From Acidocella sp. (GTDB lineage Bacteria > Pseudomonadota > Alphaproteobacteria > Acetobacterales > Acetobacteraceae), in assembly GCA_029077825.1 (NCBI GenBank), contig JAQNCT010000007.1, positions 1-64,000 of the forward strand: a DNA stretch of 64,000 bases. The letters run 5' to 3'. Below are positions 49,953 to 56,322 of this stretch, one piece after another. The position numbers and the translations under genes are program-made. Numbering within the stretch: the stretch's first letter is position 1; each line of letters begins with the position of its first letter. Under the pieces are notes generated by a model that worked only from the letters and a program-made list of their open reading frames with translations, searched no databases and was not told the DNA's origin.

Positions 49953-51040
49953 GCATGACCACCCCCACAGCGCGCCCTGAAATTTTCACGGTGGCCCCGT
50001 ATGTCGGCGGCGAGTCAAAGCTGCCGGGCGTCAACCGCGTTATCAAACTCTCCTCGAACGAGGGCGCCTTTGGCCCGCCGCTAGCTGCCATTGCCGCCAT
50101 GCAAGAGGCCGCCGCCAATATGCACCGCTACCCTGATGGCGGTATGCACGCCTTGCGCGCCGCCCTGGGCCATAAATTTGGCCTCAGCCCCGCCCAGATC
50201 ATCTGCGGCAACGGCTCTGATGACATCCTCTCCTTGCTGATCCAATCCTACGGCGGGCCGGGCAGTGAACTCATCATGAGTGAGCATGGTTTTTCAATTT
50301 ATGAAATCGCCGGGAAAATTGCCGGTTGCGTGGTGCGCAAAGCGCCTGAGCGTAACCTCACCACCGATGTTGATGCCGTGCTGGCGCTGGTAAGCCCCGC
50401 CACCCGCCTGGTGTGCATTGCCAACCCCAACAACCCCACCGGCACGCTCATCCCTGAAAGTGAAATGCGCCGCCTGCGCGCCAACCTGCCGCCTGATGTG
50501 CTGCTGGTGATTGATGCGGCCTACGCCGAATATGTTGACCGCCCGGATTATGACCCTGGCATCGCTTTGGTGAATGCCGGCGATAACTGCGTGATGACCC
50601 GCACATTCTCGAAAATCTTCGGCCTGGGTGGGGCGCGGCTGGGCTGGGCCTACGCGCCGCCTGCGATTGTGGATGTGCTCAACCGAGTGCGCGGCCCCTT
50701 TAATGTAAATGCTATTGCCGCCGCCGCCGCCATTGCCGCTTTGGCGGATGAGCATTGGCTGGCTGAGGGCATGGCTCACAACACTGCCGAGCGCGCCCGC
50801 CTTGCCAACCGCCTGACGCAAGCGGGCATCAAGGTGGTCCCGAGTGACGCCAATTTCCTGCTGCTGGATTTTCTCAGCCCTGAACGCGCGATGGCAGCGG
50901 ATGCGCATTTGCGCCGCCACGGTATTATTGTGCGCTATGTAAAATCCTATAACCTCCCCGCCTGCCTGCGCGTCACCATCGGCACCACCGAGGAATGCAA
51001 CCTGCTGGCCGAAGCACTAGTTGAATTCCAGCATGGCTGA
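49949..51040 (+). CDS. hisC: Histidinol-phosphate / aromatic aminotransferase
   Basis: 363 residues, PLP fold-type [37 protein letters not shown] and [19 protein letters not shown] (Lys of the Schiff base) define the HisC family. Between a chorismate mutase and a prephenate dehydrogenase its main work may be transamination of aromatic keto acids; dual HisC/aromatic activity is known in several bacteria. An ATG at 49955 is an alternative start. Confidence 0.9.
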
Positions 51041-51920
51041 GCCGGTTTTCAACCGCCTTGCCATCATCGGCACCGGTTTGATCGGCGGCTCCATTGCGCG
51101 TGCCGCGCGCGCATTCGGCGGCATTGCCAAAACCGTGGTGGCCAATACCCGCAGCCAATCATCGCTTGACCGGGTGGCGGCACTCGGCTTTGCCGATGAA
51201 TGTGAACTCAACCCCGCCAAGGCCGCCGCCGGGGCTGACTGCGTGATATTATGCGCGCCAGTTGGCACCTATGCCGCCCTGGCTGAACAAATTGCCCCAG
51301 CACTCATGCCCGGCGCCATCCTCTCGGATGTTGGCTCAACCAAACAATCCGTGATCCGTGACATCGGCCCCTTTGTGCCAGACGGCGTGCATTTCATCCC
51401 CAGCCACCCCATGGCCGGCACTGAATTCTCCGGGCCAGATGCCGGCTTTGCTGATTTGTTCAAAGGCCGCTGGTGCATCCTCACCCCGCCGCCCGGCACC
51501 GATGAGGCCGCCATCACCCGGCTTGATACCATGTGGCAACGGATGGGCGCGCTCACCGCCCGTATGGACGCTGCCCACCATGACCGGGTAGCCGCCATTG
51601 TCAGCCATTTGCCGCATTTAATCGCCTTTACCATCTGCGGCACCGCTGATGACTTGGCTGATGAAACCCGCCAGGAAGTGCTGAAATTCGCCGCCTCGGG
51701 CTTTCGTGACTTTACCCGCATCGCCGCCTCTGACCCTACCATGTGGTCTGATATTTTCATGAACAACAAAGACGCCGTGCTGGAAATGCTGGCCCGTTTC
51801 TCAGAGGACGCGCAGGCGATGGCGCGTGCCATCCGTTGGGGTGACACAGCTTATATCGAAGATAAAATCATCCGCAGCCGCAAAATCCGGCAGAGTTTGA
51901 TTGAGTTGAAGCAAGCGTGA
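51033..51920 (+). CDS. Prephenate/arogenate dehydrogenase
   Basis: 295 residues. Rossmann motif [20 protein letters not shown] (about 9-28), [27 protein letters not shown] (about 121, His and Arg-pocket region) and the helical C-terminal dimer domain. Converts prephenate (or arogenate) toward tyrosine with NAD(P)+. Symbols tyrA and tyrC are both used for this group; substrate preference is not readable. The ATG at 51033 overlaps hisC by 8 bases. Confidence 0.9.
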
Positions 51921-51997
51921 AACAGCCCGCCTGTCATTGAGGCAAGCCCATGTTTCCGCTATGGCAACCGCTGTTGGCATATTAAAAGGGGCTAAGC

Positions 51998-53527
51998 GTG
52001 GGCAAAATCAATGCAGGCGAATTGCTGGCAGGCCGGGAGGTTATTCAGCTTTTCCGCGCCACTGAGGATCATCTCGCTTTCATATCGGTCGTGTTCGCCA
52101 CCTATGCCAGGCAAAATCGCGGTACCCTTAGCATAGCACTGCACCGCATGCCGGAAGATTTCACCCTGCCGGAGCTTCATCCCGCCGCCCCGCCAGGCCG
52201 CAGCCGCCCACAACGCCTCATCGCCGCACTTCGCCACCAGCTTGATGCGCCAAAGCGCCCCATCAAGCTTGGCCCCCGCATCATCCGCCAACGCCTGCCC
52301 TCAAAAAACCTGTTTGATTGCGAGCCGTTTGATTTCGCCGTCGGCCCCATCACCACCAAACCAGGCGAGCTGCTGGCCTTAACCATCTGCTCAGATGCCG
52401 TTCGCGGCTATTGCGCCCCTACCACCTGGCTCACCGACACTGACATTGAAGGTCGGCTGCCGGGCCATGTCGCCTGCTTTGTTGATTCGCACTACCAGGG
52501 TGAATTCGGCGTCCAGGGCGTGCTTACCTATGGCGGCGCCCTCGCCCCCACCACAGTGCCAAAAATGCTGCTCTACAGCCCGGTCACGCAATGCAACCTA
52601 AACTGCATTCACTGCATTTCCGCCCATACGCGCAAAACTGTGAAACACATGTCGGCTGATGTCAAAGCGCAGATGAAAGCCTGGGCGCGCTCCGGCCAGC
52701 TTGAGGTGATTTCCAGCGACTATAGTGGGGATATTCTCTGGGCTGATTCCCGCTTTGGCGGCGAGCTTGATTTCATTTTTGATCTGGATATTCCATTCCA
52801 TATTGATACGAACGGCGTGTGCCTCACGGCTGTGGTCAGTGAGCGGCTCTGCCAGGCCAAAATCGGCTCACTTAATATCTCGCTCGATGCCGCGCGCGAT
52901 GAAACCTTCCGCCGAGTCCGCAAAGGCGCCCCACCACTTGCTGAAGTGATTGAAAACATCAAAGCCCTCATGCAGGCCCGGGCGGCGGCCGGCGTTACCT
53001 TCCCGGTCTCTCTCAGCTTCACCATCATGCGCTCTACGCTCACGGAGTGGCCGGAATTTGTCCGCATGGGCAAATCACTCGGCGTTGATATCGTCATCTC
53101 CCGCCATCTCGAAGCCTTCACACCTGAGATGGAACCTGATTCCTGCTGGCATGACCAAGCAGCTTTCAATGCCGCCCGGCTTGGCATCGTCGCCCTCGCC
53201 GCTGAGCTCGATATCTTGGTCACCATCCCGGAACCCTTCAGCGGCATCGCCCGCACCGCCCGGCGGCTCTGCACGGTGCCCTGGCACTCCTCCGTCATTC
53301 TCGGCAATGGCGATATCGCGGCCTGCTGCGTGCCAGGCCTGGTCATGGGCAATGTGAATGAAACCAGCCTGGAGGAAATCTGGAACGGCCCTGCCTACCA
53401 GGAATTGCGGCGCACCGTGAATTCAAGCACGCCGCCCCCCAGCTGCGCCACCTGCCCGATGTTCCGCCTGACTGACAATCCAGACAGCTATCTCATCCAC
53501 AGCGCCCTGGCCCGCATCACCGCCTGA
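51998..53527 (+). CDS. Radical SAM/SPASM protein with N-terminal jelly-roll-like domain
   Basis: 509 residues. About 1-185 is a beta-rich domain (FISVVFATYARQNRGTLSIAL, FDFAVGPITTKPGELLALTI) resembling the jelly-roll domain found in some surface-glycan glycosyltransferases and DUF2142-type proteins. The radical SAM core follows with CNLNCIHC (CxxxCxxC, about 204-211) and SLNISLDAARDETFRRVR. The C-terminus (about 420-490) holds the SPASM-like auxiliary cluster region: CTVPW, GDIAACCVPG, GNVNETSLEEIWN and CATC. GTG start behind AAGGGG. Substrate unknown; no obvious peptide precursor is nearby. It is coupled to the DUF2142 gene by TGATG. Confidence 0.85.
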   Translation: MGKINAGELLAGREVIQLFRATEDHLAFISVVFATYARQNRGTLSIALHRMPEDFTLPELHPAAPPGRSRPQRLIAALRHQLDAPKRPIKLGPRIIRQRLPSKNLFDCEPFDFAVGPITTKPGELLALTICSDAVRGYCAPTTWLTDTDIEGRLPGHVACFVDSHYQGEFGVQGVLTYGGALAPTTVPKMLLYSPVTQCNLNCIHCISAHTRKTVKHMSADVKAQMKAWARSGQLEVISSDYSGDILWADSRFGGELDFIFDLDIPFHIDTNGVCLTAVVSERLCQAKIGSLNISLDAARDETFRRVRKGAPPLAEVIENIKALMQARAAAGVTFPVSLSFTIMRSTLTEWPEFVRMGKSLGVDIVISRHLEAFTPEMEPDSCWHDQAAFNAARLGIVALAAELDILVTIPEPFSGIARTARRLCTVPWHSSVILGNGDIAACCVPGLVMGNVNETSLEEIWNGPAYQELRRTVNSSTPPPSCATCPMFRLTDNPDSYLIHSALARITA

Positions 53528-54999
53528 TGCGCGCCGCAGCCGCGCCAGCATACGCACGCATCCTGGTTGCCATCTCAGCCCTCGCCGGACATAAAAAAAG
53601 CCTGATTCTGGCGTTTCTGTTCTGCGCCTTTCCCACCGGCCTGCTCTGCGCCCTTATCACGCCGCCTGGCCAGGTGCCCGATGAACCCGCCCACGTAGCA
53701 CGTGCGCTCGGCTTGCTGCATGGCGCCGTACTCGCGGTTCGCAAACCCGGCCTTAACCCTGATGACGGTAAGCCCGAAACCCAAACTGGCGTAAAAGTGG
53801 ATGTCGGTTTGCAAATCTCCTCCACTGCGCCCGCAACCATCATCGCCGGGCGGCCGGTCATCACCAGCGCAAACATGCAGCAAGCCCTGGATGAGCCACC
53901 CAACCACACCCCCTATTTTGTCAATCTTCCCAACATGGCCTCGTATTTTCCCATCATCTACAGCCCGGCTGCGCTGGGCTTCGCGGTGGGGCTCGCCAGT
54001 CACGCCACCCCGCATATTTGCTTTCTGCTGGCCCGGTTTTTTATGCTGGCCACATTTCTGGCGGTGGGCGTCGCCGCCCTCTGGGCCGCGCAATATGGCG
54101 AAGCACTCATCATCACGGTGCTGCTCATGCCCATGACCCTGTTCCTCGCCGGCAGCGTCAATCAAGATGGCATTTTCATCGCCCTTGCCTGTTTCGGCTG
54201 CGCCGCACTCACCCGCATGGCCGGGCGCTGGCGCTTTTGGGGCTTTGCCAGCCTCGCCGTCATCATCGGTGCCAAAGCGCCTTACATGCCGTTGCTTGGG
54301 GTATTTTTGCAGCCCTTTTCACCCGGCCTCTGGCGGCGCCTGCGCCATCTCATCTATGTCGCCGCGCCCATCTGTTTCTGGGTCGTTCTCATCAGCCTGC
54401 TCGTGGTGGTGCCCTGGGCCAAAGCCCCCTACCACCCAGGCGCATTTTATACCGGTGACAGGTCAATCCTGCTCGATCATGTCAGCCCCTCCGGCAACCT
54501 GCACCTTTTGCTCGCAGCGCCCTCGCGCTTCATCACGCTGCCCTGGCAAGCCGTGCAGCAAAACGGTGTGGATTTACTCCGCCAAATGATCGGCGTGCTG
54601 GGCGCGCTGCAACTTATCCTCGGCCACGCTGCTTATCGGCTATGGGCTGCCAGCCTGGGCTGTGCCTGCCTGGGCCTGGTCCTGGTGCCCCGCCCCGCCG
54701 GCACGCCATCCTCGAGCGCAAGCAACCAGGCTTTCGCAGGCTTTATCATCATCTTCACCCTCTGGATCATGATGATCGCCATCTATGTCGATTACACTGA
54801 CCTCGGCATGACCTTCATTGATGGTCTGGAAGGGCGCTACATCTTGCCGTTTCTGCCATTTTTACTGTTCGCTTTGCCCAGCTGGCCCGCGCGCCGCACC
54901 TTCTCCCCGCTGCTCCCGGCCATGCCCGCCATCGCGCTTGGCATCGCTGATATCGGCTACATTCCGCTCAAACTCATCTATTTTTATTATGTCAGCTGA
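53527..54999 (+). CDS. DUF2142 integral membrane protein
   Basis: 490 residues with about 10-12 hydrophobic segments. The first periplasmic loop carries PPGQVPDEPAHVARALGLLHG (about 46-66), the DUF2142 signature resembling the first loop of GT-C glycosyltransferases (acidic catalytic residue D-E). YFPIIYSPAALGFAVG and GSVNQDGIFIALACFG follow. DUF2142 proteins are commonly encoded in surface-polysaccharide loci. Starts inside the radical SAM stop codon. Converges on surA. A glycosyl-transfer role is inferred. Confidence 0.82.
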   Translation: MRAAAAPAYARILVAISALAGHKKSLILAFLFCAFPTGLLCALITPPGQVPDEPAHVARALGLLHGAVLAVRKPGLNPDDGKPETQTGVKVDVGLQISSTAPATIIAGRPVITSANMQQALDEPPNHTPYFVNLPNMASYFPIIYSPAALGFAVGLASHATPHICFLLARFFMLATFLAVGVAALWAAQYGEALIITVLLMPMTLFLAGSVNQDGIFIALACFGCAALTRMAGRWRFWGFASLAVIIGAKAPYMPLLGVFLQPFSPGLWRRLRHLIYVAAPICFWVVLISLLVVVPWAKAPYHPGAFYTGDRSILLDHVSPSGNLHLLLAAPSRFITLPWQAVQQNGVDLLRQMIGVLGALQLILGHAAYRLWAASLGCACLGLVLVPRPAGTPSSSASNQAFAGFIIIFTLWIMMIAIYVDYTDLGMTFIDGLEGRYILPFLPFLLFALPSWPARRTFSPLLPAMPAIALGIADIGYIPLKLIYFYYVS

Positions 55000-55038: not shown

Positions 55039-56322
55039 TCAGTTAGTGGTAATCACCGACTGATGCTTCAAACTATCGAGCAACTGCTGGGATTCCATCT
55101 GCACGCGGCGGTCGATGATGACGTTGGCAATCTGATCATCGGAAGGCAAAGCCGCCGCCACGGTCTGGCGTGAGCACACCATCACCACGGTCACGCCATC
55201 CTGCGCCACCAGCGGCGGGCTCACTTTATTTTCCGGCAGCGTTGCCAGCATTTGCTGGAAGTTTGGCGGGGTGACGCTGGCCAGATCAACCGGCCCAGGG
55301 TCAGCCGGATGCACCTTGCCGAGGGTCTCGTTCAGCGCGTCCATGTCAGGACAAGATTTGGCATTTTTCGCGGCCGCGACAAGTTTGCTAATTACCGCCG
55401 CCTGAGCGGGGCCAACCTGGCCATTGGTAATTGGGGTCGGGTATGGCGCAAACACCTGGCGCATTGAGAGCATGGTCTGCATCGTCGAGCCGACCACATG
55501 CGTCCCCTGCATCAGCACAATATCATAACCACCCGGTACCCGGACTGGGTTGCTAACAGCGCCCACCGGCATTGAGGTAACAACCGCCGCCACACCGGGG
55601 TCCAGCTCATTGAGCGGCAAAAATCCCATGTCGCCGCCTTGCAAGGCGGTAGGGGCCTGGCTGAACTGCGCCGCTACCACCGGGAAAGGCGCACCGGTAC
55701 GCAATTGCGCAATCACTGTGGCGGCAAAGTTTTTGGCCGTGGCATCACTGGCCGGGTCGGAGACCGGGATGAAAATTTCGCTTAAGTGATACTGGGTGCT
55801 GCCGACCTGCGCCTTCAAGGCGGTTTTCTCGGCATCAACGTCGCCTTTGGTCGGCTGCAATTCTGGCCCCAACACCTTATGCAGCACCGCCTGCCAGCCA
55901 AGCTCGGTGCGGATCTGTGCCACCAGAGTTGAGAAAGCGATGCCCGATGCCGCCATCCTGGCCTTCAACCCGCCGGCCGGCAGATTATTGCCATGCTCAA
56001 TCCGGCCAATGGCGGTGGCGATGTCAGCCTCCGGCACGTTCACCTTCATCTTGCTGATCTCCTGCATTTGCAGGGTCTGGTCGATCAACTGCTGGGTGAT
56101 TTGCGGCTTCAGCCGGGTCATAATATCCGGCGTCGGCTTCATGCCTGTGGAAAGTGCTAACAGCATGGCGCGGTCGGTAACATCGGTGGTGGTAATCACC
56201 TGGCCATTGACCACGGCCGCGATATTCGCATCCTGGGCCAGCGCTTGCGGCGGCATGCCGCCCACAAGGCACGCAACACCCGCCATAAATACCGCTACCG
56301 GGCCGAGAGACATCTGTTTCAT
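55039..56322 (-). CDS. surA: Periplasmic chaperone / peptidyl-prolyl isomerase SurA-like
   Basis: 427 residues. Signal peptide MKQMSLGPVAVFMAGVACLV with cleavage after QALAQ. N-terminal SurA chaperone region (about 30-170: VVNGQVITTTDVTDRAML, GNNLPAGGLKARMAASGIAF), one parvulin domain (about 175-275: YHLSEIFIPV, FSQAPTALQGGDMGFLPLNELDP) and a second degenerate parvulin-like segment. It assists outer-membrane proteins such as LptD, encoded directly upstream with a 4-base overlap. Confidence 0.92.
   Translation of the reverse strand: MKQMSLGPVAVFMAGVACLVGGMPPQALAQDANIAAVVNGQVITTTDVTDRAMLLALSTGMKPTPDIMTRLKPQITQQLIDQTLQMQEISKMKVNVPEADIATAIGRIEHGNNLPAGGLKARMAASGIAFSTLVAQIRTELGWQAVLHKVLGPELQPTKGDVDAEKTALKAQVGSTQYHLSEIFIPVSDPASDATAKNFAATVIAQLRTGAPFPVVAAQFSQAPTALQGGDMGFLPLNELDPGVAAVVTSMPVGAVSNPVRVPGGYDIVLMQGTHVVGSTMQTMLSMRQVFAPYPTPITNGQVGPAQAAVISKLVAAAKNAKSCPDMDALNETLGKVHPADPGPVDLASVTPPNFQQMLATLPENKVSPPLVAQDGVTVVMVCSRQTVAAALPSDDQIANVIIDRRVQMESQQLLDSLKHQSVITTN

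Follow-up and report, generated by a model that had tools for sequence, protein, structure and literature searches.

Organization of the locus

Within the 64,000-nucleotide stretch of DNA analysed here (the window), a radical SAM gene and a DUF2142 gene lie on the same strand and overlap, both intact and both with their motifs present, between tyrA on the left and the oppositely oriented surA on the right (Table 1). Beyond surA follow lptD and then two lptF/G-type genes. The stop codon of the radical SAM gene shares bases with the start codon of the DUF2142 gene, as the preliminary description of this DNA had reported. That description had also placed no peptide precursor in the 76 bases before or the 40 bases after the pair; the gaps are in fact 77 bases (tyrA to the radical SAM gene, same strand) and 39 bases (DUF2142 gene to surA, opposite strand), and both are indeed too short for a precursor. 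Foreign composition was sought in both genes of the pair and none was found, the GC3 z-scores (0.1 for the radical SAM gene, 0.9 for the DUF2142 gene) being those of native genes. A search for tRNA genes and for promoter or terminator marks gave nothing above chance.

Table 1. Position of the pair, its motifs and domains, and its bordering genes in the window
Feature	Position	Strand	Basis or remark
Prephenate/arogenate dehydrogenase (tyrA), left border of the pair	51021..51920	+	NF005694 above cut-off
AGGGG, ribosome-binding-site-like	51987..51991	+	Sequence; 6 bases 5' of the radical SAM GTG
Radical SAM/SPASM (twitch-type) protein	51998..53527	+	ORF, 509 aa, GTG start; Pfam PF04055 and PF13186
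N-terminal domain, residues 1-187	51998..52558	+	Matches no known family; predicted all-beta, low confidence
CNLNCIHC, residues 199-206	52592..52615	+	Sequence; CxxxCxxC ligands of the SAM-binding [4Fe-4S] cluster
DYSGD, residues 241-245	52718..52732	+	Occupies the place of the usual radical SAM GGE/GEP motif
SPASM/twitch domain, residues 425-487	53270..53458	+	PF13186 match; cysteines C425, C443/C444, C483, C486
TGATG overlap, radical SAM stop / DUF2142 start	53525..53529	+	Sequence
DUF2142 polytopic membrane protein, 490 aa, putatively GT-C-like	53527..54999	+	PF09913
PPGQVPDEPAH, residues 46-56, first-loop acidic motif	53662..53694	+	Alignment
SurA-type chaperone gene (surA), right border of the pair	55039..56322	-	Pfam; synteny

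The first gene product was correctly recognized at the outset as a radical SAM enzyme with a CNLNCIHC motif: it has both marks of the superfamily, the CxxxCxxC cysteines and a match to PF04055 above the cut-off (residues 194-327; E=3e-10; 40.9 bits against 29.5). The cysteines are invariant across the orthologs and near-invariant in distant relatives, and the core is predicted to be a TIM-barrel, with core-fold matches up to Z 20.5. The DYSGD sequence, which is invariant across five aligned orthologs, aligns with HGVGEP of a family linked to GT87 that is considered below. SPASM-like cysteines had been reported in the C-terminal part, and a match to PF13186 (residues 425-487; E=7e-16; 58.7 bits against a cut-off of 21.5) bears out the family; however, because only four C-terminal cysteine positions are conserved in the orthologs, the region is read as SPASM of the twitch form, with one cluster and without the cysteines for two auxiliary clusters. 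(The twitch type is defined by a ligand set for one auxiliary cluster [PMC9012708].)

The second protein matches PF09913 over residues 38-446 (E=1.2e-41; 143.3 bits against a cut-off of 30.1) and has about 9 hydrophobic segments. The GT-C-like first loop attributed to it earlier is there, as an intact PPGxxPDEPxH sequence in which P51, D52, E53 and P54, together with H56 and the nearby R59, are invariant in six aligned DUF2142 proteins. A polytopic protein with a first-loop acidic motif is what characterizes GT-C glycosyltransferases, and as far as sequence can indicate the protein is probably GT-C-like. It had no match among PDB sequences, and profile comparison detected no homology among DUF2142, GT87 and the neighbour of the same-genus ortholog (G006, see below). 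DUF2142 proteins have been proposed to be GT-C-like and to transfer or polymerize cell-wall polysaccharides, a role that is unproven there (PMC12599335, PMC9746298).

The N-terminal domain

Residues 1-187 of the radical SAM protein are kept in all five orthologs found, with 32-44% identity among those aligned, and because every ortholog has them this region is, judging by its conservation, a real domain. The preliminary description had likened about 185 N-terminal residues to the beta-sandwich of surface-glycan glycosyltransferases. The conserved region is borne out, and a stand-alone AF2 model, limited by a shallow alignment that left out the whole-genome and plasmid orthologs, is all-beta with a helical insert at a pLDDT of 44; within the full-length model the same region stays below 60. 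The best structural matches to this low-confidence model are weak and of jelly-roll/lectin type, the top one being a lectin with a Z of 7.0, a level that according to the fold-comparison tool may reflect merely a common arrangement. Since the pLDDT is 44 and neither a Foldseek match at E <0.001 nor a VIA match at Z >=8 was obtained, no fold is claimed for the domain; from the model, a beta-sandwich is plausible.

The glycosyltransferase likeness, on the other hand, was reproduced by no search. No match to residues 1-187 was found in Pfam, NCBIfam or PDB sequences. A search with an approximate consensus of the glycosyltransferase beta-sandwich likewise gave nothing. Single-sequence and profile searches for the domain in other proteins of 395 genomes of the order and 329 of the phylum gave weak, scattered, chance-like matches, and those inspected fell in shadow frames or in frames of no relation. 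When two N-terminal sequences were used to query plasmids, the Methylobacterium orthologs came back, the rest being insignificant.

Distribution and gene neighbourhoods

The orthologs of the radical SAM protein are full-length or near it and 47-60% identical to the window protein. They occur in a genome of the same genus (G006, full-length, 60% identity), in another genus of the family (G411, full-length, 53%), on two Methylobacterium plasmids (full-length, 47%) and on an IMG/VR contig (L108, 50%) that also carries an integrase gene, as in a prophage flank. (In this last ortholog, at L108:5971-7459, the N-terminal part is split over two frames, for which sequencing error and decay are both possible.) At strict thresholds, no further orthologs turned up among 385 sampled genomes of the class and 369 of the phylum, and when single orthologs were searched against viral contigs, the matches were distant and confined to the C-terminal part. 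The five orthologs form one clade with support of 100/100 on a long branch; the gene is apparently rare, scattered and mobile.

A survey of radical SAM genes beside DUF2142 had been proposed at the start, with rarity of the arrangement named as a point against a role in glycan synthesis, and rare it is: of the four further distinct loci with an ortholog, none (0/4) has a DUF2142 gene adjoining the radical SAM gene in the available flanks. The same-genus ortholog stands between an XRE regulator gene and, 200 bases upstream, the gene of a 432-residue multi-TM protein that belongs to no Pfam family; the ortholog in the other genus of the family stands beside a divergent S51 peptidase gene, and that of the Methylobacterium plasmids is followed by an S9 peptidase gene, with no adjoining glycosyltransferase in either setting. 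A conserved radical SAM-DUF2142 pair, absent from every other ortholog locus seen, is rejected.

Relatives of the DUF2142 protein were found in 28/37 genomes of the window's genus, where DUF2142 genes occupy several loci and also form tandem copies; the window genome has one DUF2142 gene in total, the copy described here. The most similar DUF2142 genes of the genus usually stand after serC-serA and are often followed by a Dpm1-like GT2 gene. This serA-DUF2142-GT2 arrangement is missing from the window genome, from G006 and from G018, the nearest relative, in all of which serA is followed by alaS. Four DUF2142 genes stand in tandem in one genome (G015, L102:5176-11126), which suggests a local expansion.

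The borders of the pair indicate how it may have arrived. G018, with a tyrA of 93% identity, has about 480 bases after this gene, then surA, and lacks the pair. Because tyrA and surA are thus adjacent in the nearest relative, the 3.1-kb pair would be a recent insertion or rearrangement, of which insertion is the simplest reading. Loss of the pair from G018 is possible instead, as most relatives have different DNA behind tyrA. Judging by the compared loci, this particular pairing arose locally.

Taken together, these neighbourhoods raise the possibility that the two genes are neighbours by chance, the radical SAM enzyme acting alone on a non-glycan substrate and the DUF2142 gene having come to this place when a variable glycan gene relocated. 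The unrelated settings of the orthologs argue for this, as do the multiple loci and tandem copies of DUF2142 genes within the genus and the serA locus that lacks DUF2142-GT2 in the window genome and two of its relatives. However, a random junction would seldom give a TGATG overlap, and a coupling of a GT-C protein with a radical SAM enzyme is seen again in a related family (see below). Chance association is thus a serious contender, if on balance a doubtful one.

Glycosyltransferase links of related radical SAM families

Among the other radical SAM families of the order, the one most like that of the window protein is a SPASM family with about 25-32% core identity to it. At its 27 Acetobacterales loci, a gene for GT87, a GT-C protein, is adjacent in every case (27/27) and a GT2 gene in 24/27; the GT2 resembles AglJ and the dolichyl-phosphate-hexose and polyprenyl-phosphate-hexose synthases. 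The genes of this GT87-radical SAM-GT2 module often overlap, and a DUF2064/TIGR04282 gene is found upstream in several loci. (Examples with the order (DUF2064/TIGR04282)-GT87-radical SAM/SPASM-GT2 are at L005:5630-9439, L009:6328-9442 and L016-L042.) A description of the module was sought in the open-access literature and none was found, although one may exist all the same. Because the tree does not show this family as the sister of the window clade, its support for a sugar role is by analogy.

More distant relatives keep similar company. In Bryobacteraceae (L006) the radical SAM gene lies between two GT2 genes, in Chloroflexia a relative is near GT2 and DUF2064, and in G817 the radical SAM gene adjoins GT61 and GT2. 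Another relative, on a Brachyspira plasmid, is in a rhamnose-synthesis cluster for which a role in LOS synthesis or glycosylation has been reported as a possibility (PMC4267127).

Several architectures met in the course of these searches may be recorded separately. The G817 protein (L100:5570-8625) has a hexapeptide-repeat-like N-terminal part ahead of radical SAM/SPASM and is followed directly by GT61. In the Wolbachia phage WO record MN180251.1 (L112:2339-4675), GT4 is fused ahead of radical SAM/SPASM in one protein, with GlmU-like and epimerase genes alongside. A Planctomycetota protein (L014:7890-10094) has a SPASM domain and, after it, another radical SAM domain (CNIDCPAC). On another contig of the window genome (C16, L056:5118-9408), three radical SAM genes accompany genes for an 86-residue protein and a UbiA-like membrane protein beside a TonB-receptor-like gene; with all of these assigned by eye, the group has the look of a distinct cluster for a peptide or a cofactor.

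Many SPASM proteins mature RiPPs, and the core fold of the window protein is as close to such RiPP maturases as to enzymes of sugar chemistry. DesII, BlsE and BtrN, which act on sugar, nucleoside or aminocyclitol substrates, are core-fold neighbours at Z 15.6-19.5; the RiPP maturases SkfB and SuiB are also among the top matches, and the best Z values of DesII/BlsE and SkfB/SuiB lie within 2 of each other, so the fold does not separate a sugar enzyme from a RiPP enzyme. The protein might then be a maturase of a RiPP-type peptide or protein with a distant precursor, a neighbouring peptidase serving as leader protease; the S9 gene that adjoins the Methylobacterium ortholog, and the divergent S51 gene in G411, would suit such a scheme. 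However, within 1.5 kb of the ortholog loci no small ORF is common between genera: those in common are confined to the two Methylobacterium plasmids, where the DNA is near-identical. Homologues lying beside peptide precursors, an observation that the preliminary description had set against its own idea, did not come to light, as no precursor-like ORF is common to the ortholog loci. In addition, the N-terminal region, all-beta in its low-confidence model, has no match to a RiPP-recognition domain in Pfam; the protein scores far under every NCBIfam cut-off for RiPP maturases; and the gaps on either side of the pair are too short to hold a precursor. A RiPP-type function is accordingly quite improbable.

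The nearest NCBIfam models point to yet another activity, that of a metalloenzyme or cofactor maturase, the best matches being TIGR04317 (91.8 bits) and TIGR04311 (83 bits), models for a tungsten oxidoreductase maturase and a putative metalloenzyme maturase. Both scores are below the cut-offs (380 and 400 bits, respectively), and no oxidoreductase gene was seen directly adjoining the orthologs. Because the GT87-linked family, which sits with glycosyltransferases, reaches a higher score with these models (140 bits), the matches are generic, and we regard a maturase of this kind as very improbable.

A possible role in surface-sugar modification

The best explanation, tentative and held at somewhat less than an even probability, is that the locus encodes a mobile accessory twitch-type radical SAM enzyme that modifies a sugar bound for the cell surface. 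This role is favoured because the two genes overlap on one strand, because related families adjoin or are fused with glycosyltransferases, because of the literature on DUF2142 and the GT2 gene that often follows serA-linked DUF2142 in the genus, because the PDEPxH loop is intact, because DesII, BlsE and BtrN are among the core-fold neighbours, and because the ortholog loci share no precursor-like ORF. Counted against it are the lack of DUF2142 at the other ortholog loci, the G411 and Methylobacterium loci, which have no adjoining glycosyltransferase, the long branch of the orthologs in a tree that does not place the GT87-linked family as their sister, RiPP maturases that equal the sugar enzymes in Z, and the unplaced N-terminal domain. 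The original idea, a modification step in glycan or lipid-linked sugar synthesis, thus gains from the GT87/GT2-linked family and the DUF2142 literature, but the pair is not conserved and the claim for the N-terminal domain is of low confidence.

The substrate would, speculatively, be a sugar bound either to a nucleotide or to polyprenyl phosphate, at the cytoplasmic face. By homology, the CxxxCxxC cluster would cleave SAM, and the resulting 5'-deoxyadenosyl radical would abstract a hydrogen from this substrate, while the four-cysteine auxiliary cluster would accept an electron or hold the substrate; the outcome may be an oxidation, an epimerisation or a similar change. The DUF2142 protein would transfer a sugar from its lipid carrier to an acceptor that faces outward. 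More speculatively, the N-terminal domain might bind glycan, and the product of the radical SAM enzyme might be the substrate of the paired DUF2142 protein.

A broader proposal, which we consider rather unlikely, is that radical SAM/twitch enzymes are a general partner class of GT-C transferases (GT87 in one family, DUF2142 in the window), editing nucleotide sugars or sugars linked to polyprenol that are afterwards transferred to the surface; no description of such chemistry was found in the literature searched. Should the radical SAM enzyme of the window edit surface sugars, radical chemistry would join the means by which bacteria assemble glycans, and the widespread association of SPASM-type radical SAM enzymes with glycosyltransferases would gain a function. 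The presence of the GT87-radical SAM-GT2 module in Acetobacterales of many genera makes the surface-sugar idea testable independently of the rare pair. If instead the pairing is due to chance, the window holds no more than a member of a mobile, orphan subfamily of radical SAM enzymes whose N-terminal domain is unplaced.

Comparison with known systems

SkfB and SuiB share the core fold with the window protein at a Z of about 20; the window protein differs from these RiPP maturases in having no precursor nearby and no recognisable RiPP-recognition domain. BtrN, DesII and BlsE are radical SAM enzymes with aminocyclitol, sugar or nucleoside substrates, and BtrN resembles the window protein in combining a radical SAM core with a single four-cysteine auxiliary cluster of the twitch type; there is also a weak sequence match between BtrN and the window C-terminal domain. 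Unlike all three, the window protein has an extra 187-residue N-terminal domain, has DYSGD in place of GGE/GEP, and is not part of an antibiotic cluster.

On the side of the membrane protein, the WpsI-WpsJ type proteins of lactic acid bacteria belong, like the window protein, to Pfam DUF2142 and are polytopic and GT-C-like, but their genes are inside cell-wall polysaccharide clusters, whereas the window DUF2142 gene is alone with the radical SAM gene (PMC12599335). The window pair is also like the GT87-radical SAM-GT2 module in arrangement, in that a radical SAM/SPASM gene overlaps or adjoins the gene of a GT-C-type membrane protein. The module differs in that its radical SAM protein is without the N-terminal domain and has a canonical GEP, its membrane protein is GT87 rather than DUF2142, and it has a GT2 partner, which the window pair lacks. 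It has far better comparative support than the window pair and may be the better lead.
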